IMG/VR virus record: IMGVR_UViG_3300021365_000140
Coordinates: 1 to 21,473 of that record
DNA length: 21,473 bases
Direction: 5' to 3' (one strand)
DNA from: a virus
Positions 482-21,473 of this stretch are shown here, piece after piece. Under the pieces are notes generated by a model. The model was not told where the DNA came from and did no database searches. It saw only the letters and a list, made by a program, of their open reading frames with translations. Positions within the stretch are counted from its first letter, which is position 1, and each line of letters starts with the position of its first letter. Made by a program: the position numbers and the translations under genes.

Positions 482-2254
482 TTATGCAGGGAAATCAACT
501 CCTGTTGGTAATACATTGAAATCTAGGATTATGAATTCTGCTGTTTTAGTTGGTTGTAAATATATTGCTCCAACTAATTCGTTTCTATCAATAACATCTG
601 GTGTATTGTTAGTTTCGTTCATTACAACTTTAAACGCGTATAAACCTTGTCTTTGTTGTACTGATTCTAAGTATGGGTTAACTTGTGTCAAGAAGTTATT
701 TCTTGTACTAATTGTATTTTGCTCAAACACTAAGTTATCTGATACTTGTACTATAAATGATTTAACTGCTATTAGCAATCTTCTTACATTTACTCTATCT
801 AATGCACTTGCTCTACGTTGTAATGTTTTTTGTCCAAATACTACAACTCCACTTGCTGGGAATGTTGCTATTGGATTTACATTTCCACTGTATAAAGTGT
901 CTCTTTGTCCTGATGTTAATCTTTGTTCTGCTCTTATAACATTCCCTAAAGCACCTCTAACTAAACCTGCTGGTGCAAACCATGGCTCAGATGATGCGTC
1001 TGTAAATGAATATACGCCTGGAATAAATGCTGAAGCTGGAGACCAAGTGGTCATGCCGCTAGTTGGGTCAATTGCTTGTAACCACGGCCAATACGCAGCT
1101 GCATAACTTGAATCAAATGCTGTAGCACTTGCTACTGTTTGTGATACTGTTTTACCATATGCTGATGGGTCAACTACTGTTATACAATCTTGTCTATTTT
1201 CTGCTAATGCTACTAATGAATTAACTTGAACTAATGAATTTGTAAATGATGAATCTCCAATTAATCCTGGTGCAACTACAACATTAAAGTTATAATCATC
1301 TTTATTATTAAGTAATGATATTGATGCTGAATAATCTGTTGCCGTTAATCCCTGTATATTCGTGTCAATTATGTTGCTATTAAATTTAGCTGGCGACATT
1401 GATGCCTGAATATTTGCTCCAGTTGCTCCCGTGAAGGATCCTGAAGATGCTACTGGTATGAATTTTGAATATAAAGTTCCTGCTGATCCACTATTTACTC
1501 CACCTGCATTGTTAAAGAAATTTGGTGTTGGAGTTAATACTGATTTTACAGAAATATATTTACTTCTATTAACATAATCTCCTGTTGATTTAACATAATA
1601 ATCAGCTCCATCCTGTGCAATTTCGTGAGTAGTATTACCTATTACTCTTTCTATATAATTTGGTTGGAATGGATCTAATGATAAATCATTAAATGTTTCT
1701 AAAATTGATGGTGAATTTGAAGTATCGTTACCTTGTCTTACTATTAAAGAGAAAGTACCTGATCCTGTATTAACACCAGCAATTTGCCATCTAACATTAT
1801 CTGCAGTACCTAATGCTAATGTACCACTTGCAGCATCAGATGTTGCATAGTTGTTCATTATAGTTCCTTCAGAAATTGTTTGGATTTGGAATGATTCTGA
1901 TGTTTCAAGATTCATGATTCCACTATTTCCAGATCCTGCAGTACTACCTGAGGTAAATGCTGGAGCGAAATCACCATGAGTAACTCTTGTTACTAATAAT
2001 GAGGTTCCACCTTGTCTAAAGTAATTATTAGCCGCTGTAGAAGTTAAGTAAGAATACTGTAGAGATGCACTTTCAACTGTTTGACCAAATATTGCTTGGT
2101 ACTCACTGAATGAAGTAACTAATGTAGGTTTTTCTACAGGTCCTTTTACTGCTGGTCCTATAATCGCTGCTCCGAAATTTAATGGGTTTTGTTGGATAAA
2201 TGATTGATCATTTTCTCTTGCCAATACGCCTGGAGATATTAATGTTTCTGCCAT
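482..2254 (-). CDS. 18: Tail sheath protein, gp18-like
   Basis: This 590-residue protein forms the contractile outer layer of the tail, and many copies wrap the tube. Its N-terminus (ISPGVLARENDQSF, residues about 6-19) and the following segment with GPAVKGPVEKPTLVTS are typical of T4-type sheath proteins. So are the stretch YFRQGGTSLLVTRV (about 77-90) and the C-terminal domain ending FNVLPTGVDFPA, which carries the inter-subunit strands. The middle third is Ser/Thr/Gly-rich and variable, as expected for the outward-facing domains. T4 gp18 is 659 residues, so this is a slightly compact version. The ATG at 2254 is the only start that keeps the N-terminal motif. An AATATTTATAA block lies 32 bases upstream and another lies after the gene before the tube gene. 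A long antisense ORF across this gene is a shadow. Confidence 0.95.
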   Translation of the reverse strand: MAETLISPGVLARENDQSFIQQNPLNFGAAIIGPAVKGPVEKPTLVTSFSEYQAIFGQTVESASLQYSYLTSTAANNYFRQGGTSLLVTRVTHGDFAPAFTSGSTAGSGNSGIMNLETSESFQIQTISEGTIMNNYATSDAASGTLALGTADNVRWQIAGVNTGSGTFSLIVRQGNDTSNSPSILETFNDLSLDPFQPNYIERVIGNTTHEIAQDGADYYVKSTGDYVNRSKYISVKSVLTPTPNFFNNAGGVNSGSAGTLYSKFIPVASSGSFTGATGANIQASMSPAKFNSNIIDTNIQGLTATDYSASISLLNNKDDYNFNVVVAPGLIGDSSFTNSLVQVNSLVALAENRQDCITVVDPSAYGKTVSQTVASATAFDSSYAAAYWPWLQAIDPTSGMTTWSPASAFIPGVYSFTDASSEPWFAPAGLVRGALGNVIRAEQRLTSGQRDTLYSGNVNPIATFPASGVVVFGQKTLQRRASALDRVNVRRLLIAVKSFIVQVSDNLVFEQNTISTRNNFLTQVNPYLESVQQRQGLYAFKVVMNETNNTPDVIDRNELVGAIYLQPTKTAEFIILDFNVLPTGVDFPA

Positions 2255-2286
2255 TGCTTTATATTATATATTAAAGTATTATTTTG

Positions 2287-2297
2287 TTATAAATATT
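2287..2297 (-). promoter_or_regulatory. Recurrent AATATTTATAA block before tail sheath gene
   Basis: An exact copy of the block sits in the gap between the 82-residue gene and the sheath gene. It is 32 bases upstream of the sheath ATG, followed on the coding strand by CAAAATAATAC, very like the copy at 5298. Confidence 0.55.
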
Positions 2298-2315
2298 AGA
2301 AATTTCCTCAAAAGT

Positions 2316-2564
2316 CTATTCTATCGGACTTATTTCACCATTTGTTAAATTTATGTTTCCACTACCGTATTTTTCTTCTAATCCTTTAGCAGTAATGTCT
2401 TGTTCTTTTTGAAGTTCTTTAAAATTTTTAAATAACTCCTCTTTTTTTTCATTTTGGACCATTTTATTTAATTCTATGGATCCTAAACTAAATATTATAT
2501 CATTGTTTTTTGTTTGATAACTATTTAGTAATTGTAACTCTTTTTCTGATAACTTTTTAGACAT
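2316..2564 (-). CDS. Small helical protein of unknown function in the tail operon
   Basis: This 82-residue protein is mostly charged helix: about residues 1-62 are rich in Lys, Glu, Leu and Gln and could form a coiled coil. A short tail follows (EEKYGSGNINLTNGEISPIE). Small proteins with this LxEKYGxGxINLxxGE ending are familiar in phage structural clusters, but I know of no assigned role. It lies between the tail-completion gene and the sheath gene, so it may be a minor tail factor or an assembly chaperone; that is inference from position. A block close to AATATTTATAA ends exactly 15 bases before its ATG, suggesting it is transcribed on its own as a late gene. Confidence 0.75.
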   Translation of the reverse strand: MSKKLSEKELQLLNSYQTKNNDIIFSLGSIELNKMVQNEKKEELFKNFKELQKEQDITAKGLEEKYGSGNINLTNGEISPIE

Positions 2565-2579
2565 AATGTATTTGTTTGA

Positions 2580-2590
2580 TTATAAATATA
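2580..2590 (-). promoter_or_regulatory. Recurrent ATATTTATAA block (one mismatch) before 82-residue gene
   Basis: Ten of eleven bases match the block. It ends 15 bases before the ATG at 2564, the most common spacing in this window. Confidence 0.5.
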
Positions 2591-2606
2591 TTTAGATTTA
2601 TTAAAA

Positions 2607-3551
2607 TTAATCCCTTATCCTACCATCTGTTGTAGGATTTCTTAAAGGTGTAGTATCTCTCATATCTCTTACTGTTTCTGTTGAAATTGTTACTTTAGCC
2701 TTTGAACTATATTTTTTCATAGCATTTAAATCTTTTTGTATAACATCAGGAATAATGTAACCCCTTAATCTTATATTAAAAGTACCTTTAACAAGCCTGT
2801 CTTGACCCATTATTAATTCTGTTGCTGTTGCAAACGAATCTATAAATGCTCTAAATTTGTATCTTTCAGGATTACCCCAATATGAATCAGATGCGTATTC
2901 ACATGCTTCAATAATTTTATTTAATTGAGACATATAATAAGTTTGTATAAGACAACTATATTCTAATGTTACATAATCAGGTTGTGCTACTACATGATAA
3001 GTGTCAACGGGTATTCTATTATTTAATTGTGAAAAATTATCATAAAAGTTATTAGCACCATATGTTTTAGACCATGTACCATATAAATTGGGTTGATTAG
3101 AATCTAATTTATTAGCTACTGATCTGTCTTTTGTTATTGTATCTCTTTTAATTACGATAATAGGTAACATAATTGCACCTTGTTTATCTCTATAATATCC
3201 ATCTCTTTGAAATGATTTCCATCTTTCAGGAGCACCATATATTACTGGTACTTCTCTACGTTGACCATTTTGAGTAACAAAAGGTTTAATTACATTTTGA
3301 AAATAATAAAATACAGCTTCATCTAAATCTTGTATACCAACAGAGTATTGTTTTGTTTTATCTTCCTTAAAACTCATTTCCTCAGACCTATTAAAACTTA
3401 TTCCTGTATTTTGGTAATTAGCATTTTCATGCCCATCATTAAAATTAGGATTAGTTTGAATACCTCTATCTTCAATACCATTAAAAGCTTTTTGCTTTGA
3501 AACAGATATTTGTTTTTGAGTTTTTGGTGTAGGTTTTCTAGGTTTTGCCAT
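2607..3551 (-). CDS. 15: Tail completion / sheath stabiliser protein, gp15-like
   Basis: This 314-residue protein matches the T4-like gp15 pattern. A basic, flexible N-terminus of about 60 residues is followed by the core. That core has the segment VPVIYGAPERWKSFQRDG (about 101-118), then LPIIVIKRDTITKDRS, then a beta-rich part with PDYVTLEYSCLIQTYYMSQ. In T4, gp15 forms the ring capping the tube and sheath that joins the tail to the head. Neighbours fit: the two genes before it are gp13- and gp14-like neck genes and the sheath follows. Its ATG overlaps the stop codon of the gene before it (TAATG), so translation is probably coupled; an AGAGAAAGAATG stretch upstream is one of the few purine-rich leaders here. 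Family assignment is by motif, not by search. Confidence 0.78.
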   Translation of the reverse strand: MAKPRKPTPKTQKQISVSKQKAFNGIEDRGIQTNPNFNDGHENANYQNTGISFNRSEEMSFKEDKTKQYSVGIQDLDEAVFYYFQNVIKPFVTQNGQRREVPVIYGAPERWKSFQRDGYYRDKQGAIMLPIIVIKRDTITKDRSVANKLDSNQPNLYGTWSKTYGANNFYDNFSQLNNRIPVDTYHVVAQPDYVTLEYSCLIQTYYMSQLNKIIEACEYASDSYWGNPERYKFRAFIDSFATATELIMGQDRLVKGTFNIRLRGYIIPDVIQKDLNAMKKYSSKAKVTISTETVRDMRDTTPLRNPTTDGRIRD

Positions 3552-4066
3552 TACATTCTTTCTCTATAAGGTGAAATTGCTACTTTATCCGCTGGGATAT
3601 AATATGTTGAAACTAATGTTGATAAATTATTACCAAAGTTTTCTAATCCTGGATTTAGTGGGTTAACATTATTTGGGTATTTTGGATTTTTACCTCCCCA
3701 ATATTGGTTAGCTACTGTACTTTGTACTCCATAATATCCTTCTTGATATAAAACAATATCACCTACTCTAGGTAATACGTCTGCATCTACTAAATCATCT
3801 CTAAAAAAATAAAATTGAATTCCTTGTCCAAATTGAACACCTTCTACATTATCAACATATTGTTCATTTTCTCTATTTATTAAAACATTAAATATAAAAG
3901 GACCGTCATAAAATTTTTCTTCATCGGCTTCTCCATATAAATTAACTTTAGTTTCTTCTAATTTAAATTGATATAAGGAGCATTGCTGAGTAATAATATT
4001 ACCCATCAGTTCTCTATTTAACTTTCTAACCAGAGACATATCTCTCTGGGTGGTGAACATTGCCAT
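3551..4066 (-). CDS. 14: Neck protein, gp14-like
   Basis: This 171-residue protein sits between gp13-like and gp15-like genes. The segment LMGNIITQQCSLYQFKLEETKVNLYG (about 20-45, described here in part) is the kind found in T4-like marine-phage gp14 proteins. The segment FNVLINRENEQYVDN and the later phrase DADVLPRVGDIVLYQEGYYGV are also typical of head-closure proteins. In T4, gp13 and gp14 close the filled head and form the site where the tail docks. It is shorter than T4 gp14 (about 256 residues). One base separates it from the gp13-like gene upstream and its stop overlaps the next start, so the three form a tight translational unit under the block at 5298. Confidence 0.72.
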   Translation of the reverse strand: MAMFTTQRDMSLVRKLNRELMGNIITQQCSLYQFKLEETKVNLYGEADEEKFYDGPFIFNVLINRENEQYVDNVEGVQFGQGIQFYFFRDDLVDADVLPRVGDIVLYQEGYYGVQSTVANQYWGGKNPKYPNNVNPLNPGLENFGNNLSTLVSTYYIPADKVAISPYRERM

Positions 4067-4067
4067 A

Positions 4068-5282
4068 TTATGCTATATAGATTGTGTAAGGCACTTGTTG
4101 TAACTCTATCATCTTAGCTTCAGCTTCAGATGCCCTACGATTTAATAATGCTTGTCTTGATGTTTCATCAAAATAATTCCTTAATCTTTCAAGTAATGCT
4201 GTTTTTTCAGATGTTGCAGCTGATATTAAATCACCTTGATTTAAATTAACTTCAGCATTTGGAATAGGTATACTGCTATATTTTCCTCTTACGTATCCTA
4301 ACATTTCTTTAGATAAAGATAATGTGTATTCAAAAATCCATTGTCTACCAATTGAATTAATGTAATCGTAATTTGGATTTTCGTATGGTGTATTTGAAAC
4401 ATTTGTTACTGATGTTGGTGTTTTTTTAACTGAGCCTTCTATTCTTTCATCTCTTATTATATATTCAAACCAAACTCTACGTTCACAACATCCATCACAA
4501 TCATCATTTCCACCACTAAAATTAGGGATAGGGAATATTCTTAACATATCATTTCTTATTTCAAAGCTATAATTACTTCTTCTAACTTGTCTATTCATAT
4601 CAATAGATTGAATAACTTGTAAGTCATAATTTAAAGGCATCATTAAGAAACCTTCTGCTCCACCAAATCCACCTACACCTGCAATTCCAGCTGCAATAGC
4701 TCCTCCAAATCCAAATCCATTATAAGGATCCATTAATATAGCTGATGCTGGTAATGGTTCTTGATAAAATACTCTTTTAACTTCTATACCAAAATCCCCA
4801 AAAGCAGCTAAGCCTGTTCCTAAAGAACTAGTTATTAAGCTTTGAGACATAAATGTTTGAAAAGAATAATCTTGTTGGCTTGAAGTTAAAGCAAATGAAC
4901 CAGAATAATAAGGCACATTACCACCTGATCCTGCTTCAGCACCATACATTTCTGTAAGTCTTACTATTGGTTCAAATGATGGTGTTATTATAGCTTGATT
5001 TAAAGGACCTGATCCTGTTTTTAAACCTTCTAATGTTAATTGATTATCTCTTACTTTATAAGCATATAACTCATTTCCATAGGTAGTTACAGCTTCTTCA
5101 AAAGCTGTGTAAAACGACCCTGATTGTAATTCAACATCAACTAATGGATAACCTAATCTCCTTGCGCAAAAATCAGCTACTTTATCTGCATCTAAATCAA
5201 AATCCGCTTGTGTATCATAAAAACCAAACGGTGTTGCACCGGGTGCGAATGATGATGACCCTGGCCAAATTGGTACATTCAT
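4068..5282 (-). CDS. 13: Neck protein, gp13-like
   Basis: This 404-residue protein has the N-terminal signature of T4-like gp13: FCARRLGYPLVDVELQSGSF (about 38-57), then AFEEAVTTYGNELY. Its C-terminus is a helix-rich part with GRQWIFEYTLSLSKEMLGY, a proline-rich IPIPNAEVNLNQGDL segment and a final helix. The middle (about 115-250) is an insert rich in Gly, Ser and aromatic residues that makes it longer than T4 gp13 (309 residues). It includes a DDCDGCCERR cysteine cluster near residue 265 that could bind a metal. The protein should form part of the head-to-tail connector. It is the first gene after the capsid terminator, with an AATATTTATAA block exactly 15 bases upstream of the ATG. Confidence 0.78.
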   Translation of the reverse strand: MNVPIWPGSSSFAPGATPFGFYDTQADFDLDADKVADFCARRLGYPLVDVELQSGSFYTAFEEAVTTYGNELYAYKVRDNQLTLEGLKTGSGPLNQAIITPSFEPIVRLTEMYGAEAGSGGNVPYYSGSFALTSSQQDYSFQTFMSQSLITSSLGTGLAAFGDFGIEVKRVFYQEPLPASAILMDPYNGFGFGGAIAAGIAGVGGFGGAEGFLMMPLNYDLQVIQSIDMNRQVRRSNYSFEIRNDMLRIFPIPNFSGGNDDCDGCCERRVWFEYIIRDERIEGSVKKTPTSVTNVSNTPYENPNYDYINSIGRQWIFEYTLSLSKEMLGYVRGKYSSIPIPNAEVNLNQGDLISAATSEKTALLERLRNYFDETSRQALLNRRASEAEAKMIELQQVPYTIYIA

Positions 5283-14454: not shown

Positions 14455-16029
14455 CTATAATAACCAACTTATATCCTCGTTGCCATCAGGTGTGTTCATT
14501 TGGTAGGGATTTTTAACTTTTTGGTTACCTACGCCATAACTTGCCTGATAAGGAGTTCTGTTGACTTTCATATTGTTTAATGTTTGTTTTTGTATGTCAA
14601 TACCTCTTTGTCTATATTTTAAAGCTGTATCTCTAATATACATAGCCATACCAAAGGACATGACTAAATCATCGTTATACCCTGTTTGAGCTTCTGGTCT
14701 TCCATTACGCCAAATAAAGGTTTTCATTTCTTCAACTAATCTTTTAGATTGTATAGTTACGCCTTTGTCACCAATATATTCTTGTAATTTACCTATTACC
14801 ATAGGTCGTGTTCTAGAAGACATAGTAAACCCAGCTACCATTTTTGAATGGTCTTGAAATTTATCAAAATAAGAATTTACATTTGTTCCTTCTGATTTTT
14901 GGGAATAATATAAGTTAGGGTAATTTCTATCAATACAAACCTGTATTGTAGCCCATCCTATATTAGCATTTTCTATTACTAATAATGCTTCATTATACTC
15001 AGTTGCTATACCAACTAATAAATGTCCAAATTCTTTAGTACCTAATTGTCCTTTATATTCTGCTACTTGAACATTATTAGTAACATCTAATACATGAAAT
15101 GCAGAATAATCTTTTCCGTCACCTCTAGATACATCTGCTACTACTAAATAATCTCTAGTATAATCTGCATTTTCCCATACCCATAAATTTTTATCAACTC
15201 CTCTTCTTTCTAATGGTGATTTTATAAATGATTTTTCATAATATTCTATATATTCACTGTAAAATACAATATCACCAGAAGTACTAAAATCACAATCACA
15301 TTCTTGTGCTGCCATTCTAGGATCACCTAATAATTCATTTTGTGTATCTCTCCACTTTTGATCTCTTTCTGGATGGACATACCAGGGTAATTTAATAGGT
15401 AAAAATTGATTTTCTTTTGCTTCTGCTCTTGTCCAGGTTTGATGAAACCAATTACCAGTACCATAAGGAGTAGATAATGCTATACAACCACCACCTGTTG
15501 CTAATGTTTGTTGTGCTGATGCCCAAATTTCTCCAATATTATCAATAAAAGCTGCTTCATCAATTAATAGTAAAGATACTGCTTCAGATCTACCAGCATC
15601 ACTTGAAGCTGATGTAGCTTTAATTTGAGATCCATTTGATAATCGAAGATTTAATTTATTATTTTCTGCTGCATCAATTTTAAGCCAAGATGGTAAATTT
15701 TCATACATAAATTTTACCTTTGTAACCATGTTTTTAGCTGTTTCTTGTTTTGTTGCTATACAAAGTATATTTTTATCTTTATGAAATGTCATCATCCACA
15801 AAGAATAACCTGCTGATAAAGTAGATATACCTAACTGTCTAGATTTTAAAATAATAGAATAAGGATTGTCTTGAAATAATGTAAGTACCTTTTCTTGGAA
15901 AGGAAATAGATTAAATTGTATGCGCCCTCGTTGTGGGTGCTGTATATAACAATATTTACGCATAAAATGTACAGGATCCCGAGCACATTTTAAATATTCT
16001 TGACGTATTACTTTTTTTAAATCAGCCAT
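14455..16029 (-). CDS. 17: Terminase large subunit, gp17-like
   Basis: This 524-residue motor pumps DNA into the head with its N-terminal ATPase and cuts concatemers with its C-terminal RNase H-like nuclease. The ATPase has SRQLGIST at residues 63-70 as Walker A, LLLIDEA at 154-160 as Walker B (D158, E159) and STPYG at 187-191 as the coupling motif. The nuclease has VVADVSRGDG with D300, LLVIENANIG with E354, and GYNDDLVMSFGMAMY with D454/D455, matching the three acidic residues of T4 gp17. Walker A has Ile where most P-loops have Lys (the GKT position), a deviation known in some phage terminases. It is shorter than T4 gp17 (610 residues). The preceding gene ends two bases upstream. No small terminase is recognisable nearby. 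Confidence 0.96.
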   Translation of the reverse strand: MADLKKVIRQEYLKCARDPVHFMRKYCYIQHPQRGRIQFNLFPFQEKVLTLFQDNPYSIILKSRQLGISTLSAGYSLWMMTFHKDKNILCIATKQETAKNMVTKVKFMYENLPSWLKIDAAENNKLNLRLSNGSQIKATSASSDAGRSEAVSLLLIDEAAFIDNIGEIWASAQQTLATGGGCIALSTPYGTGNWFHQTWTRAEAKENQFLPIKLPWYVHPERDQKWRDTQNELLGDPRMAAQECDCDFSTSGDIVFYSEYIEYYEKSFIKSPLERRGVDKNLWVWENADYTRDYLVVADVSRGDGKDYSAFHVLDVTNNVQVAEYKGQLGTKEFGHLLVGIATEYNEALLVIENANIGWATIQVCIDRNYPNLYYSQKSEGTNVNSYFDKFQDHSKMVAGFTMSSRTRPMVIGKLQEYIGDKGVTIQSKRLVEEMKTFIWRNGRPEAQTGYNDDLVMSFGMAMYIRDTALKYRQRGIDIQKQTLNNMKVNRTPYQASYGVGNQKVKNPYQMNTPDGNEDISWLL

Positions 16030-16435: not shown

Positions 16436-16700
16436 TTACTTTATATTTTAAAGTGACAATTTTTTTATCTTGTTGATATATTTCTTTGTCTAATTTTACT
16501 ACTTGTTGATTTAATGTATCAATTTTAAATACTAGATTATCATTTATATTATGTAAAGAATCAACTTTAGATTCTAATTTTTCTATTTTAGTATTATAAT
16601 CTATAACATATTCCTCATCTCCTATTAATACAAAATAAATTAATGCACTACTTAAAAGAAGGATTATTCCATAAGTGATAAATCTTTCTTTAGACGGCAT
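16317..16700 (-). CDS. Inner-membrane coiled-coil protein, candidate inner spanin (Rz-like)
   Basis: This 127-residue protein has one N-terminal membrane anchor (about residues 8-27, YGIILLLSSALIYFVL) followed by a long heptad-patterned coiled coil. The segment KIDTLNQQVVKLDKEIYQQD is part of it. It ends in a short tail with FNDDELTRFFTERYGQYLDS. This is the build of an inner spanin, which spans the periplasm to meet an outer partner and fuse the membranes at the last step of lysis. The next gene starts inside it in another frame, as Rz1 does in Rz. Its ATG overlaps the preceding gene by 11 bases. An Rz-like call fits length and topology; a general membrane anchor protein is the alternative. 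Confidence 0.7.
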   Translation of the reverse strand: MPSKERFITYGIILLLSSALIYFVLIGDEEYVIDYNTKIEKLESKVDSLHNINDNLVFKIDTLNQQVVKLDKEIYQQDKKIVTLKYKVNEKVNSVDSFNDDELTRFFTERYGQYLDSVKKANSSSSN

Positions 16701-17094
16701 CTTTTTCTAATTGTGCAACTAATGATTCTAATTCTTTTTTTCTAGATGTTTTTTGTTTTAAATCATCTTTAATTTTTTCTTTTTCAATTCCATCTGCTTT
16801 ACTATATTTTCTAGCTAATGATTTCATACTAGTAGTAATATCTTTTAAAGCTTTAACAGCTATATCTAATTTTTTAAATTTACCTCTAGCGGCTTTAGCA
16901 TTTTTTATAGCATCTTTTTCATCATCTTCCTCGTCCTCACCTAATTGTTTTTGTAGGTCAACTGTTTTTTTAAGTTCAGCGTTATAGGATTGTTGAGCTT
17001 TTACATCTTCTGGAGATATTTTATTTTCTTCGTTCTCTGATAAAGTCGAAAGTATATTTTCTTTAATATAAGATTTTAATTCAGATTTTTTCAT
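16690..17094 (-). CDS. Charged helical protein of unknown function, possibly packaged
   Basis: The 134-residue product is nearly all charged helix with an acidic patch (GEDEEDDEKD, about 52-61) and a Lys-rich coiled coil after it. Its start, MKKSELKSYIKENILSTLSE, is an amphipathic segment ending in L-S-E, the kind of site cut by T4-type prohead proteases, so it could be an internal head protein. Being just upstream of the terminase and lysis-like genes it could instead be a distant small terminase (gp16), but I see no DNA-binding motif to support that. A near copy of the AATATTTATAA block ends 15 bases before the ATG, marking it as the head of a late operon that runs into the spanin-like and terminase genes. 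Confidence 0.65.
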   Translation of the reverse strand: MKKSELKSYIKENILSTLSENEENKISPEDVKAQQSYNAELKKTVDLQKQLGEDEEDDEKDAIKNAKAARGKFKKLDIAVKALKDITTSMKSLARKYSKADGIEKEKIKDDLKQKTSRKKELESLVAQLEKDAV

Positions 17095-17109
17095 TGCTAT
17101 TAGGTTTTA

Positions 17110-17120
17110 TTATAAATATG
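17110..17120 (-). promoter_or_regulatory. Recurrent ATATTTATAA block (one mismatch) heading the lysis-terminase operon
   Basis: Ten of eleven bases match; it abuts the preceding stop codon and ends 15 bases before the ATG at 17094. Confidence 0.5.
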
Positions 17121-17651
17121 TTAAAGCCCTGTAACAGTTAATATTTGTTGAATACGTTCCTCTGTAGATCCTGATATTTTTTCTATTGTATTACATTTAT
17201 GGCTATATCTTTTAATTAAAGTTGTGATAGTAAAATCAATTAAATCTCTATAATGTTCATCTGTTTCACGTACTCCATTATCTTCAATAGGTAAGCCATA
17301 AGGAGAAATATAAAAAATGTAATCATATTCTCGTACAAATTCTTTTGCATATTTTTCAAATATATCTTTATCTTGATGAGCTATAGATTTAGCATTCATT
17401 GTAAATGCCATAACATCAAATACAGTTCTATCTGTAATTATATTATCTTGCATTAATTCGGCACAACGTTCAGCTAAAAATACTGTTTGACCCTTTAATG
17501 TAGAATCAGTATTTAAAGGAATACCTAAATTACTTAAATATTTACTACGCTCAGTAGCAAAATTATAATTATTAAATTGTTCCGTTTCTTTTAAAGCATT
17601 AACTAATGTAGTTTTTCCTACACTCATTGTACCACATAAACCTATTTTCAT
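17121..17651 (-). CDS. P-loop NTPase, AAA_28 / NadR-kinase-like
   Basis: The 176-residue protein opens with MKIGLCGTMSVGKTTLVNAL, a Walker A loop at residues 7-14 (GxxxxGKT). It has DRTVFDVMAFT (about 76-86) as the second functional region and then DYIFYISPYGLPIEDNGVRE, which is typical of the AAA_28/NadR-type kinase group. In NadR this domain phosphorylates nicotinamide riboside to feed NAD synthesis; other members act on nucleosides or are uncharacterised. It follows the FAD-dependent dehydrogenase and the GPA-motif protein closely, with three bases to the latter, so the three are probably co-transcribed. The fold is confident. The substrate cannot be read from sequence; a nucleoside or dNMP kinase is the main alternative. 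Confidence 0.82.
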   Translation of the reverse strand: MKIGLCGTMSVGKTTLVNALKETEQFNNYNFATERSKYLSNLGIPLNTDSTLKGQTVFLAERCAELMQDNIITDRTVFDVMAFTMNAKSIAHQDKDIFEKYAKEFVREYDYIFYISPYGLPIEDNGVRETDEHYRDLIDFTITTLIKRYSHKCNTIEKISGSTEERIQQILTVTGL

Positions 17652-17654
17652 ATT

Positions 17655-17912
17655 TTAATTTCTATGATTTTGACCTTTAGGTGCTGGTTGTTTATACCAA
17701 GGCAACCCCGTTTGATTCCTAATCGCTTCTTTATGATCTTCTTTACTAAATTGTATACCATATAAATGATATTCTGCTTTTCTCTCATTGCCCTCAGGTA
17801 TTAAAGCTGGTCCTTCCCAATTATGTAGTTTACCATCCCAAATATAAGCTATAGTCCCATCTGCTTTTTTTAATCTTTGACTTTTAGGCCACTCGTTTTC
17901 TTTATTTTTCAT
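17655..17912 (-). CDS. Small GPA-motif protein of unknown function
   Basis: This 85-residue soluble protein has the core IAYIWDGKLHNWEGPALIPE (about 21-40), then EYHLYGIQFSKEDHKEAIRN and a Pro-rich tail LPWYKQPAPKG. The DGKLHxxxGPA pattern with a following YxLYGI recurs in small phage proteins and resembles single MORN- or WG-like units, but I know of no function. Its ATG lies 21 bases after the dehydrogenase stop and its stop is three bases before the P-loop gene. The upstream sequence has a CGTATATT element shared with the dehydrogenase leader. Confidence 0.72.
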   Translation of the reverse strand: MKNKENEWPKSQRLKKADGTIAYIWDGKLHNWEGPALIPEGNERKAEYHLYGIQFSKEDHKEAIRNQTGLPWYKQPAPKGQNHRN

Positions 17913-17933
17913 ATGCTATAATATACGTAATAT

Positions 17934-19223
17934 TTATTGGTTTTCCAAAATATCTTCAGCAACTAGTGTACCATGAGCTCCTGATACCGAAATGCCTCTT
18001 GCAGAAAGGGCATCTCCCACAAAGTGAACATTTGGATATTTAGTTAATGATAAGTTATCGTAATTAACTAATGGTTCAGGAGCTAGATATTTAACTTCAG
18101 GTACATATATTCCCCAATCATCTTTTAATGTTGGAAATACTTTTTTCATGTCATTAATAAAATCATATACATACGGAAAATATGGTTGCATTGCTTTAGA
18201 AATTTCATGTAATCTATCTACTTTAGTAGCTGATACTTCTACACCTTCTGATGTAGTTGATTGTTCTCTTGTTGGACTATAAAATAAACCAGTACCTTTA
18301 GATTGTAAATTTTGTACTACTTTTCTAGCCCATTTAAATGGTTCTTTAATACCTTGTACTTCCATTAATATACCAAAATTAGTCATATCATTTCTAAATG
18401 CTTCATCTTTTTTAGCATGTCCATTGTAACTATGGTTACCATATGTTTCTTCAACTGCTACATAAGCTGCATTATTATTAGTACAAAATGATCTTAATGA
18501 TACACCTTTATCTTCATACTTTCTATATAATTTAAAATCATAAGCAATATCAATTAACTTTTGAAAGTGTTTTTGTGGTGCTTCAAATCTAACACCAATT
18601 TGAGCTGGTTTTTCTTCTGTTGGTAAATCATATTTTTTCATTATTTCTGATGTAAAATCTATACCTGATTTACCTACACCAAATATAAGTTTATCATATT
18701 GCATTTTTTCTCCATCACAATAAATCCATTCATTATCAAAATCAATATCATCTACTTTAGTTTCCCATATAAATTCTACACCTTTATCAACTAAATAATC
18801 ATACCAACTTTTACCAATTTCATGTAGATAATCAGTACCAATATGCCATACTGGAAATAATCTTAAACCAAAATATGGTTTGATAAAATCTGGTTCTTTA
18901 TCAGGTGAAGATAATATAATTTGCTCTGGGTGAGGGTGAAATCTAGTAAAATTATCTACTACTTGCTTCATAAGCTCCATTGCTTTTTCATCACCTACAT
19001 ATTTAGATAATTGTCCCCCAATTTGAGTAGAATATGTTAATTTACCATCTGACCAACCACCCGCTCCTAAGTAACCAGTCATTACTTCTTCATATGGTCT
19101 TAAATATGGATCTTTACCCATATCAATAATAGTAATTTTACCATCAAAATTATTATCAACCAATTTAGTAGCAGCATTTACTCCTGCCACCCCTGCTCCT
19201 AATATTATTATGTTTTTGCCCAT
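17934..19223 (-). CDS. FAD-dependent dehydrogenase, COG2509-like
   Basis: This 429-residue protein is a complete flavoenzyme. The N-terminal dinucleotide-binding fold has GAGVAG at residues 9-14 and an acidic residue at 34 for the ribose. GAGGWSDGKLTYSTQIGG (53-70) matches the FSDGKL block of COG2509 uncharacterised FAD-dependent dehydrogenases. The C-terminus has WGIYVPEVKYLAPEPLV and then VHFVGDALSARGISVSGAHG (about 399-418), the second FAD-binding motif that closes this family. No signal peptide or membrane segment is present, so it is cytoplasmic. The reaction is unknown for the family. It has its own leader after a terminator and is followed by the small GPA-motif and P-loop genes. All motifs are intact, so it is probably active and an auxiliary metabolic gene. 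A geranylgeranyl-reductase-like role is a less likely alternative. Confidence 0.85.
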   Translation of the reverse strand: MGKNIIILGAGVAGVNAATKLVDNNFDGKITIIDMGKDPYLRPYEEVMTGYLGAGGWSDGKLTYSTQIGGQLSKYVGDEKAMELMKQVVDNFTRFHPHPEQIILSSPDKEPDFIKPYFGLRLFPVWHIGTDYLHEIGKSWYDYLVDKGVEFIWETKVDDIDFDNEWIYCDGEKMQYDKLIFGVGKSGIDFTSEIMKKYDLPTEEKPAQIGVRFEAPQKHFQKLIDIAYDFKLYRKYEDKGVSLRSFCTNNNAAYVAVEETYGNHSYNGHAKKDEAFRNDMTNFGILMEVQGIKEPFKWARKVVQNLQSKGTGLFYSPTREQSTTSEGVEVSATKVDRLHEISKAMQPYFPYVYDFINDMKKVFPTLKDDWGIYVPEVKYLAPEPLVNYDNLSLTKYPNVHFVGDALSARGISVSGAHGTLVAEDILENQ

Positions 19224-19255
19224 GTATTGTATTATTTTATATGCGTGAATATACG

Positions 19256-19288
19256 AAAAAAAAATGTGACCTCCAAATGGAGGCCACA
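19256..19288 (-). terminator. Rho-independent terminator after the three structural paralogues
   Basis: On the minus strand TGTGGCCTCC, loop ATTT, GGAGGTCACA form a 10-bp stem with one G-U pair, followed by nine T residues. It ends the 19341-20857 operon and isolates the dehydrogenase gene. Confidence 0.92.
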
Positions 19289-19340
19289 GATCTCTTAATT
19301 TAATTTAATCGCCAGGCTATGAATCTGACTATATGTTTAT

Positions 19341-19844
19341 TTAGCTAGCTCTTAATACTGATACTGTTGTAGCTGATGCTAATGAAATATCAAAACTTGC
19401 TGAAGCTCCAGCTGCTACAACTGCACTACCTACAATAGTAGCTCCTGTACCACCTACCATTGTTATAGCGTTAGCTCCTGATATGTTAATAATGTGGAGT
19501 TTATACATTTCATATAATTCATGAGATGCTGTTCCTGATGTCCCTCCAAATAATCCATCAATTAATACTGCTGCTGTTGAAGTAGTAAAATTAATAGCTC
19601 CACCTGGGTTACTTACAATAATTTGCTTTTTAATTACAGTTGGTGTAACTGAAAGAGCTATATTAGATGTTTCGTGTACTGGTTGGTAATTTATTGGAGT
19701 ATTTATGTTTTGATAGCTATATACTATATCATTTACTTTTGCTATCTTATTATTCCAGATAAATCTTTCTCCACCACTAAATGTTTTTGATGTTGTAGAA
19801 GATAATCCTCCTGGAGTATATGCTGTTCCTCTTGTTCCTGCCAT
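19341..19844 (-). CDS. Predicted virion protein, paralogue 3 of 3
   Basis: This 167-residue protein shares its plan with the two genes before it. The N-terminus has GGERFIWNNKIAKVNDIVYS (about 24-43), where the other two have RPGHWYWDNQ or RPGHQYWNSR. The C-terminus has HIINISGANAITMVGGTGAT, then IVGSAVVAAGASASFDISLA and a final strand. This Gly/Ala/Thr-rich beta repeat, with an NxSGxNAIT core and an iaaGaxaxFxv ending, recurs in head-decoration and fibre proteins of large phages. It probably decorates the virion, but the exact location is unknown. It is the last gene of the group; a strong terminator follows 53 bases on. N-terminal RPGH is lost here, so it is the most divergent copy. Confidence 0.72.
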   Translation of the reverse strand: MAGTRGTAYTPGGLSSTTSKTFSGGERFIWNNKIAKVNDIVYSYQNINTPINYQPVHETSNIALSVTPTVIKKQIIVSNPGGAINFTTSTAAVLIDGLFGGTSGTASHELYEMYKLHIINISGANAITMVGGTGATIVGSAVVAAGASASFDISLASATTVSVLRAS

Positions 19845-19869
19845 GGTTTTATTTTTTATTTAAATTAAA

Positions 19870-20379
19870 TTATAATCTGATTATTAATCCGTCTTCAATT
19901 CCAGAAGTAATTGTTCCAATATAAACACGGAATCGAGCTGTTGCTCCTCCAGCAATTACCATTGATCCAATTTCTGTTAGTCCACCTGCTGATGCTGTTA
20001 CTGTAATAGCATTCCCTCCTGATAGGTTAGTATAAGAAAATTCAAAATATTCTCCTACTATAAATCCAAAATTTGATATAAATTGAGCTGCTGTAGGCAT
20101 TGCTACACTAATAGGACCTGCTGGTGTTTGACCTAAGTGAGCAGAATATGCTGCATTGTTAGATTCTGATGAATCAAAAAATGAAGTTACAGTTATTGAA
20201 GTTGCTCCTGCTGTTAAACCTACTGAATTACCACCAAAATTACTTGGTTCAACTCTATTTACCCAAGACCATAATACTCTATCTGCTGTTAATAATTGAT
20301 TATCCCAATACCAATGTCCTGGTCTTCTTTCCAATTGGTTAGTCATGTCTACTGGAGCTAATACTTTTGAATATGCCAT
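19870..20379 (-). CDS. Predicted virion protein, paralogue 2 of 3
   Basis: This 169-residue protein shows the shared plan clearly: LERRPGHWYWDNQLLTADRV (about 16-35) followed by LWSWVNRVEPSN. A variable beta-rich middle follows, then the domain FSYTNLSGGNAITVTASAGG, then LTEIGSMVIAGGATARFRVY near the end. It ends in IIRL. Start ATG 20379 is preceded by an A-rich leader with no ribosome site. Gaps to its neighbours are 22 and 25 bases, so the three genes form one operon. Virion decoration or fibre role is inferred from the domain type and operon; no motif proves it. Confidence 0.74.
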   Translation of the reverse strand: MAYSKVLAPVDMTNQLERRPGHWYWDNQLLTADRVLWSWVNRVEPSNFGGNSVGLTAGATSITVTSFFDSSESNNAAYSAHLGQTPAGPISVAMPTAAQFISNFGFIVGEYFEFSYTNLSGGNAITVTASAGGLTEIGSMVIAGGATARFRVYIGTITSGIEDGLIIRL

Positions 20380-20401
20380 AATTTTTTCTTTTTTTTAGTT
20401 T

Positions 20402-20857
20402 TTATAAAATATACATTGAAACAGTAGTTGCACTAGCTCTTCTTAATCTAACTTTAACGTTATTACTTGCTGCTATTGTTAGGCTTCCATATGATGTTAC
20501 ACCTGCACCCGCTGCTAAAGTTAATGCATTTGCACCACTTAAATTTGCAATAACAGTCTCAAATGAATCATTATCTTTAGTAAATCCTAAATTTGCAATT
20601 AGGTTTGCTGCTGTATCTGTTGTTAATGTTCTTGGTGTTGCATTAGCTATTGTAGCATATTCTGCTAACCATGTTGCTGCTCCAATTACACCACTTACAT
20701 CTGCTAATGTTAAAGGTGTCATGTTTTTTATTGGTAAATATTTTGATACAAAGCTGTATACAAAATCGTAAGCATCAAGTGTTCTTGAGTTCCAATATTG
20801 GTGTCCTGGTCTTTCTACTAAGAAACTTAACCAAGAGTTTGCTGATTTAATTGCCAT
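20402..20857 (-). CDS. Predicted virion protein, paralogue 1 of 3
   Basis: This 151-residue protein is first in the set. It has FLVERPGHQYWNSRTLDAYD (about 12-31), then FVYSFVSKYLPIKNMTPLT. A middle part follows, RTLTTDTAANLIANLGFTKD, whose counterpart in paralogue 2 is PTAAQFISNFGFIVGEYFEF. The C-terminal domain is VIANLSGANALTLAAGAGVT, then SYGSLTIAASNNVKVRLRRA, ending TVSMYIL. The FxV-NLSGxNAlTL-GxGvt-iGs pattern is seen in virion proteins of large phages. A leader of about 90 bases with a near copy of the AATATTTATAA block (64 bases upstream of the ATG) precedes it, probably driving the whole group. Confidence 0.74.
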   Translation of the reverse strand: MAIKSANSWLSFLVERPGHQYWNSRTLDAYDFVYSFVSKYLPIKNMTPLTLADVSGVIGAATWLAEYATIANATPRTLTTDTAANLIANLGFTKDNDSFETVIANLSGANALTLAAGAGVTSYGSLTIAASNNVKVRLRRASATTVSMYIL

Positions 20858-20921
20858 AATGTTTGCTGTCTTTTTTAATTATTAAAAAGCTGGTATTTCA
20901 CCAACTACAACTTTTTGTTTA

Positions 20922-20932
20922 TTATAAATATA
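20922..20932 (-). promoter_or_regulatory. Recurrent TATATTTATAA block before the paralogue operon
   Basis: Ten of eleven bases match. It is 64 bases before the first paralogue ATG, farther than other copies, and lies just after the cysteine-rich micro-ORF. A weak hairpin (AGTTGGT, loop, ACCAGCT, 20888-20906) lies between block and gene. Confidence 0.4.
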
Positions 20933-20948
20933 TGATAATCTATTAAGA

Positions 20949-21053
20949 TTACGAAGCACAACACTTACTGTTACACCACTTTAAACATATTTTATTAAAT
21001 GTTATCTTACAAATAAAATTACAAATTTTTTCTTTCATTTTATTATATTTCAT
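20949..21053 (-). CDS. Cysteine-rich micro-protein, 34 residues
   Basis: The minus strand from ATG 21053 encodes 34 residues with six cysteines at 11, 15, 23, 27, 31 and 32 (pattern CxxxC-x7-CxxxCxxxCC) and many lysines. A second ATG at codon 6 is possible. It starts four bases after the stop of the acidic gene, which favours coupled translation, and a stretch this rich in Cys is unlikely by chance in AT-rich spacer. No signal peptide is present, so the cysteines would be in the cytoplasm, where they could bind a metal or be acylated. Similar tiny basic Cys-rich peptides occur in large phages without known role. It may also be non-coding. Confidence 0.5.
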   Translation of the reverse strand: MKYNKMKEKICNFICKITFNKICLKWCNSKCCAS

Positions 21054-21057
21054 CGAA

Positions 21058-21468
21058 TTAGTCTATATAATAATCATCAATATCATCACCCTCTCTTTCG
21101 GTTTGAGGAAATAAATAATCTAAATAGTTATACCATTTATCATCATAATCTTCATATCCACTTTCTGTTTGATAATAACCAGCTATTAATTTACCAATAT
21201 CTGAAGCTGGTTCATCAAAATAATCGGCTACATCTTCTGCATCTGTCCAAGTTGAAGCTGCATTCATAAATTCAATTACATCTTCATCATCCATATCATC
21301 AAAACTTCCTTGGTCTTGCATTATATCATATACTTCACCTGCTAGATTCTCATCTTTAACTTGAGGAAATTTTTCTTGAAATTCTTCCCAAGATAAATCA
21401 ATAGCTACAGTTTGTTCTTTTAATAGCCTTCCTTCAGCTAAATATTTTTTTAAATCGAAGTTATCCAT
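21058..21468 (-). CDS. Acidic protein of unknown function with capsid-targeting-like N-terminus
   Basis: This 136-residue protein is strongly acidic (many Asp, Glu and Tyr). It starts MDNFDLKKYLAEGRLLKEQT, an amphipathic segment with two possible gp21 sites (LAE before G13, LLKE before Q19) of the kind that leads T4 internal head proteins. The phrase FDLKKYLAExRL is familiar from marine T4-like phages. The body has LSWEEFQEKFPQVKDE and WTDAEDVADYFDEPASDIGK, helical with no known fold, and ends in a run of acidic residues and Tyr. Only five bases of its leader are in the window, so its promoter is not visible. It could be an internal head protein or a DNA-mimic type inhibitor; neither is shown. 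Confidence 0.72.
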   Translation of the reverse strand: MDNFDLKKYLAEGRLLKEQTVAIDLSWEEFQEKFPQVKDENLAGEVYDIMQDQGSFDDMDDEDVIEFMNAASTWTDAEDVADYFDEPASDIGKLIAGYYQTESGYEDYDDKWYNYLDYLFPQTEREGDDIDDYYID

Positions 21469-21473
21469 TTTAT

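Follow-up and report, generated by a model that had tools for sequence, protein, structure and literature searches.

The gene at 17934..19223 on the minus strand encodes, with very little doubt, an intact flavoenzyme of the COG2509 type that belongs to the core of its phages. The window, that is, the whole stretch of DNA analysed, is a single virus record of 21,473 bases and represents a T4-like late region. The FAD gene lies upstream of a P-loop kinase gene and the terminase gene; in a marine lineage of T4-like phages that is so far uncultivated, it belongs to the core genes and keeps its syntenic place. The reading favoured here, tentatively and at somewhat less than an even chance, holds that the enzyme performs a redox step late in infection, using FAD and acting on a purine- or nucleotide-type metabolite, in coupling with a nucleotide-type kinase.

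The reading frame starts at an ATG at 19223 and runs for 429 aa without internal stops; the plus strand across 17934-19223 has stops throughout and no long frame. A first-pass annotation of this DNA had proposed a complete gene with exactly these ends, which proved right, although it left the minus strand unstated and the kinase unmentioned. Both FAD motifs and the SDGKL block, which it had described as kept, are present: GAGVAG at residues 9-14, SDGKL at 58-62 and GDALSARGI at 403-411. An alignment of 69 viral and cellular sequences contains 41 invariant positions, including residues of all three motifs (G9, G11; S58, D59, K61; G403, D404) as well as H127, R212, Y228, K231, R244, C247, N249, E258, N267, H269, E376 and K378. 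On the strength of these 41 positions it can be argued that the chemistry is conserved between phage and cellular forms. Comparison with ten relatives showed purifying selection on the gene (pN/pS 0.15-0.28). As relatives of the protein are encoded in 371 viral-contig stretches and the gene is under such selection, the ORF is not a product of chance. The view that the gene is of full length and looks active is therefore shared here: it is intact, and the alignment, the predicted fold and the selection suggest that the product is probably active.

The family assignment draws on a profile and on structure. A single-sequence search of the PDB with the FAD protein gave only a modest match to 3NLC (E value 5e-4), and a profile built from short forms, 23 of phages and 46 of cells, matched the same entry (VP0956) at 3.2e-39. 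The AlphaFold2 model (pLDDT 87.6, pTM 0.89) aligns with 3NLC over 385 residues (Foldseek E 5e-23; Z 33.9, rmsd 2.9), while the runner-up reaches Z 20.2, with 221-228 residues aligned among the next best. Because of the profile match and the full-length match of the model, the protein is called a COG2509-type short form, a label that rests on 3NLC and on the motifs of that COG. VP0956 of Vibrio parahaemolyticus, a long-form COG2509 member, is a structural-genomics entry titled 'uncharacterized protein'. It has the full-length fold and the SDGKL and HIGT blocks in common with the phage protein; however, its N-terminal extension of ~95 residues is missing from the latter, so that the alignment begins at 3NLC residue 95. 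The SDGKL block and the subsequent family blocks are all present in the FAD protein, which also scores above the cut-off for Pyr_redox_2 (35.6 bits; cut-off 26.1) and matches phrog_12409 'dehydrogenase'. The Pfam family FAD-depend_C (PF21688) gave no match in the FAD protein at E 0.1 and none in the protein of a Fletchervirus discussed below, whereas one cellular short form scored 47.6 bits and one long form 244.4 bits (cut-off 27). For this reason the protein is labelled a diverged COG2509-type short form and not a PF21688 member.

The HI0933 family was considered and rejected, as Pfam HI0933_like reached 14 bits against a cut-off of 50. The HI0933-like flavoproteins (2GQF, 3V76, 2I0Z, 4CNJ) have an FAD Rossmann core in common with the model at Z ~20, but only 221-262 of their residues can be aligned to it. 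The profile search and the structure prediction that the first-pass annotation had named, the one as a possible refutation and the other as a check, both returned 3NLC, the latter with a confident model, and its assignment to the COG2509 type stands. The same is true of its statement that the family is without an established reaction, since none was found in the literature searched (open-licence papers only). The locus At4g30720 presumably also belongs to COG2509, a placement that was not counted as evidence. It is described as a chloroplast FAD oxidoreductase (PMC2869320).

Along the minus strand of the window, the FAD gene follows three paralogous ORFs and precedes an 85-aa ORF, the P-loop kinase, a 134-aa ORF, two small ORFs and the terminase. 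Beyond the terminase come the genes for portal, protease, major capsid protein, head-tail adaptor and tail sheath; ORFs without an assignment lie in between. The three tandem paralogues (19341-19844, 19870-20379 and 20402-20857, minus) are 34-37% identical to each other, two have weak head-scaffolding PHROG matches, and they occur in only part of the related loci. The 85-aa ORF (17655..17912, minus) evolves fast and has no Pfam or PHROG match and none in the named-phage collection. It is followed by the kinase (17121..17651, minus; AAA_28 family, 176 aa), the constant partner of the FAD gene, by the 134-aa ORF (16690..17094, minus), whose order after the kinase is conserved, and by the terminase large subunit (14455..16029, minus). 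The two small ORFs before the terminase have hydrophobic stretches, judged by eye, and one of them has weak coiled-coil Pfam matches. The description of the gene as lying between two structural modules is therefore only half right: the upstream side holds the three paralogues (19341-20857), with weak head-scaffolding matches for two, but on the downstream side the kinase and small ORFs precede the terminase.

The terminator said to lie before the gene corresponds to a strong hairpin resembling an intrinsic terminator at 19265..19288 on the minus strand (10-bp stem, 4-nt loop, nine T), which would end the upstream transcript; counting the T run, the pattern stops 41 nt ahead of the ATG. The box TATAAAATA at 19233..19241 (minus), 9 nt before the ATG, exceeds the T4 late-promoter consensus TATAAATA by one base and is suggestive only. 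Rfam detected no leader element within 16500-21473. PADLOC returned no defence match for the FAD protein, the 85-aa ORF or the 134-aa ORF, and one weak partial match for the kinase (E 0.005, 13.8 bits).

The window and related loci contain small ORFs with a near-identical N-terminal peptide (MDNFDLKKYLAEG...) but divergent bodies, one of them at 21058-21468 (minus) of the window. A total of 79 such ORFs were found in 46 of 80 related loci, with at most six per locus, as in L179, where six stand in a row at positions 1961-4979. The MDNFDLKKYLAEG N-terminus resembles the capsid-targeting tag of T4 injected internal proteins, and these ORFs are a candidate packaged-protein family.

The best 80 of the 371 viral loci encode proteins 76-100% identical to the FAD protein. 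Wherever the contig extends, the order FAD gene, small ORF, kinase, 134-aa ORF, small ORFs and terminase is near-invariant in these loci, the small ORF between the FAD gene and the kinase being the most variable part of the block. To guard against circularity, linkage searches were seeded on the terminase, which serves as a syntenic anchor, and on the kinase, and not on the FAD gene. Among the 80 terminase-seeded loci in the matches listed, the FAD gene was present in 29/29 that reach 2.7 kb upstream, and the kinase in 48/48 that reach 1.6 kb upstream. Seeding on the kinase gave 80 loci, of which 72 were examined and the remaining 8 had already been covered; 55 of the 57 with at least 500 nt upstream carry the FAD gene, and both exceptions have less than 750 nt upstream. 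These counts make the FAD gene and the kinase a unit that is core to the lineage. Judged by the terminase, no cultured phage is closer than Flavobacterium phage immuto (60%), from which Bacteroidota hosts appear likely.

Outside this lineage, the named-phage collection gave 52 matching records, namely 38 Campylobacter phages at ~25% identity and 14 unannotated fecal records. Gp008 of Fletchervirus NCTC12673, a 'dehydrogenase', is likewise phage-borne, similar in length and equipped with the same FAD motifs, but is only ~25% identical to the window protein and reads SDNK where the latter reads SDGK. In the two Fletchervirus copies that were looked up, the gene adjoins dUTPase and clamp-loader genes, and the annotation shows no kinase within 8 kb. 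Of the 14 fecal records, labelled 'Bacteriophage sp.', the three that were read look like pieces of bacterial chromosomes and were not counted as phage copies. These three, L084, L085 and L086 (MT836377, MT835490, MT835478), carry bacterial housekeeping genes, recognised by eye as dnaX/recR/smpB, thyA/rnf and mutS, one record having been seen partly.

By sequence and predicted fold, the constant partner of the FAD gene belongs to the P-loop kinases. It matches AAA_28 (PF13521) at 44.3 bits against a cut-off of 27, and S10, G12, K13, T14, D74 and R75, which make up a Walker A and a DR motif, are invariant in 27 sequences. Its predicted structure (pLDDT 87.6) has NadR (Z 17.3), deoxycytidine kinase (16.3), deoxyadenosine kinase (16.1) and thymidylate kinase (15.5) as neighbours, so that NadR-like and deoxynucleoside-kinase-like folds are effectively tied for the model. 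Owing to this tie, the kinase does not settle the substrate.

Further indications come from cellular relatives of the FAD protein, which are mostly Bacillota and 26-32% identical (best 80 among the matches listed). In one Bacillota-type phylum, which holds Desulfotruncus and Schwartzia, the short form is near-core, with 151/199 genomes positive at 1e-60 in one genome draw; a second, nearly identical draw was left uncounted. The Bacillota proteins (~460 aa, e.g. Schwartzia succinivorans L090) fall in a length class similar to that of the phage form and have the same invariant set, including C247, H127, H269 and E376. They differ in being only 25-32% identical, in carrying a cysteine-containing insert ahead of SDGKL and in their surroundings, where purA or xpt is a frequent neighbour in place of the kinase of the phage form.

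This neighbourhood was read in 91 cellular short-form loci from the top of the ranking, 31 from the phylum draws and 60 further ones fetched. PurA lies downstream in 44 of the 91, on the same strand in every case (44/44), with a gap of 17-145 nt in 42 and 1332 nt in two. Four more loci have xpt directly upstream at 23-30 nt, five have dnaB only, and 38 are without purA, xpt or dnaB within ~1.5 kb. The commonest neighbour after purA is dnaB; however, 28 of the 44 purA loci show no dnaB in the stretch read, which argues that the pair of short form and purA is not merely the order of dnaB and purA. Among the best 80 cellular loci in the matches listed, purA is nearby in 8 and xpt in 7, and the purA cases extend to Mycoplasmatota (L145) and Actinomycetota (L163). 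The two sets overlap by at least two genomes (L392 and L413 are the same genes as in the L093 and L090 genomes), and two others, L393 and L394, gave the same values. On the tree, the loci with adjacent purA fall in clusters: the trait takes 9 changes and occurs in 6 of the 28 groups formed at 70% identity, with 88 of the 91 rows included and three lost. The adjacency may thus in part reflect inheritance of the gene order at dnaB and purA. Collectively, the purA/xpt neighbourhood supports a purine-related role well, if not conclusively.

A near-core short form with purA or xpt as neighbours and a NadR/deoxynucleoside-like kinase as phage partner are the reasons for which the purine or nucleotide step is favoured. 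The FAD protein and the kinase two genes downstream would work as a pair on a small molecule derived from a nucleotide or nucleobase, most likely a purine. The FAD, which the protein is predicted to bind, would take or give a hydride in a pocket of invariant polar and charged residues, proposed to be lined by H127, R212, Y228, K231, R244, C247, E258, H269, E376 and K378, and the kinase would phosphorylate the substrate or the product of the FAD enzyme. The invariant residues common to phage and cellular forms count for this proposal, as does the purine-base chemistry (que, folE and a DpdA-like protein) encoded by a 158-kb relative. Against it count the clustering of the purA adjacency, the 38/91 loci without purA, xpt or dnaB, the lack of a purA homologue (PurA/PurZ; 0/8 phage records), the two Fletchervirus copies near dUTPase without an annotated kinase at up to 8 kb, and the tie between the two kinase folds. 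Moreover, the 158-kb record ends inside its FAD gene, so that kinase and que genes were not seen there together with a whole FAD gene. With an identity of only ~25-32%, the phage and cellular substrates may also differ. A bolder form of the proposal holds that the COG2509 short forms are a missing flavin-dependent purine-nucleotide enzyme, whose phage version would produce or recycle a purine deoxynucleotide, or a base of the genome, of an unusual kind; this we regard as unlikely.

The kinase also lends itself to a different interpretation. If it phosphorylated nicotinamide riboside and the FAD protein were an oxidoreductase dependent on NAD(P)H, the pair would maintain or restore the NAD pool at a late stage of infection, perhaps to counter defences that deplete NAD. 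The best structural match of the kinase model is indeed NadR bound to nicotinamide riboside, and a sequence-profile search of the PDB with the kinase placed a nicotinamide-nucleotide adenylyltransferase first (E 0.005). A related phage also encodes an adenylyl/cytidylyltransferase-like protein in its late region, seen in 8/80 loci, a count limited by locus ends; however, this is a weak domain match that stays below the cut-off. Deoxynucleoside kinases lie within ~1 Z unit of NadR, and the cellular form has purA and dnaB as neighbours, with no nad gene recognised among its 14 largest neighbour groups. Taken together, a role in NAD economy is an unlikely explanation of the pair, although it is one of the two main rivals of the purine reading, the other being the 7-deazaguanine modification considered next.

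Another interpretation arises from the wider gene content of the related phages, in which the FAD enzyme and the kinase would act on 7-deazaguanine, either in DNA or before its insertion, as a late genome-protecting step. The 158-kb relative (L172) encodes FolE, QueD, QueE, QueC, a flavodoxin and a DpdA-like protein (L172:14958-15764, minus), the last of which is 40% identical to immuto DpdA, matches only PHROGs of unknown function and has no Pfam family above cut-off. Further, immuto has a homologue of the terminase and a homologue of the kinase (28%; 25-28% for its relatives), and the immuto kinase sits in a 7-deazaguanine DNA-modification cluster. Around such immuto-like kinases, DpdA was found in 30/34 loci, a formyltransferase in 30/34 and QueF in 32/34. 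The immuto-like phages (L087, L342-L375) have this as a conserved cluster of FolE, DpdA, formyltransferase, P-loop kinase and QueF, in which the kinase is annotated only as a thymidylate kinase. DpdA-like matches were obtained in 4/24 FAD-phage records, the source record among them, most of the other 20 being short fragments; one of the four is cut by a contig end and one has an in-frame stop.

Several observations speak against this modification reading. No FAD gene was found in immuto or in any of 13 immuto-like records, some of them fragmentary, with a query that does match its own record. Fletchervirus NCTC12673 has the FAD homologue but no annotated que/dpd genes, and strict co-occurrence was not seen, although an FAD-phage record does carry que/dpd genes. 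Measured along the contig of the 158-kb record, ~87-95 kb separate the que genes from the FAD gene; should the genome be circular, the distance in the other direction would be ~62 kb. A 7-deazaguanine step is judged to be unlikely.

Other enzymes encoded by these phages were noted in passing. The 158-kb relative has a NodU/TobZ-type carbamoyltransferase (L172:3112-4785, minus; PF16861 and PF02543 above cut-off), possibly for DNA or sugar modification. The late region of a 120-kb relative encodes a Zeta-toxin-like P-loop protein (L178:8433-9230, plus; PF06414 61 bits, cut-off 22.3). ThyX and ThyA were each found in 0/6 marine FAD records, five of which are ~120 kb or shorter, and ThyA in 3/3 immuto-like records. 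The idea of the FAD protein as a substitute for thymidylate synthase was dropped, as Fletchervirus NCTC12673 has a flavin-dependent thymidylate synthase in addition to its FAD homologue.

The first-pass annotation had suggested an uncharacterised step in host redox or cofactor metabolism and a search for the cellular donor, a view that amounts to an auxiliary metabolic gene taken from a host. The family does look metabolic, and its reaction was not found in the open-licence literature. However, among the matches listed, the closest cellular proteins are at most ~32% identical and the plasmid relatives (18 records) are distant, at most ~29%. The short form was found in 1/296 Bacteroidota genomes, and that one had been chosen as the centre of the scan for having the gene; the scan scored five candidates per genome at E 1e-30, a setting that weaker long forms could escape. 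The presumed hosts thus seem to be without the short form, which argues against a simple host-derived auxiliary gene. A search for the donor by phylogeny, as had been suggested, gave no name: a tree of 75 rows from a quick search groups the marine phage proteins in a single clade, whose stem is saturated at ~9 changes per column. Given this saturation, the starred union of the clade with Fletchervirus may be long-branch attraction. Recent acquisition from a host is therefore unsupported, and the strict core synteny with the kinase does not resemble an occasional acquisition. Of the earlier interpretation, family and integrity stand and the host-derived metabolic step is unsupported; the auxiliary-gene view is considered improbable. 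Finally, it is very improbable that the FAD protein feeds electrons to, or repairs, a phage ribonucleotide reductase: the 158-kb marine relative and Fletchervirus NCTC12673, hence both FAD-phage groups, carry large and small subunit genes, but many T4-like phages have ribonucleotide reductases without an FAD gene, and no nrd gene was recognised in the 14 largest neighbour groups of the cellular form.

As an enzyme family, this one is already known and has a solved structure. Three points are new within the literature searched: the phage gene is core, it has a kinase as its partner, and its cellular relatives are associated with purA and xpt. The phage gene supplies a minimal, strongly conserved pair of enzyme and kinase, to which the cellular relatives add a recurrent purA neighbourhood. 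An 'unknown dehydrogenase' thereby becomes a directly testable purine-nucleotide question, one that concerns both a near-core gene of a bacterial phylum (151/199 genomes) and a widespread marine phage group.
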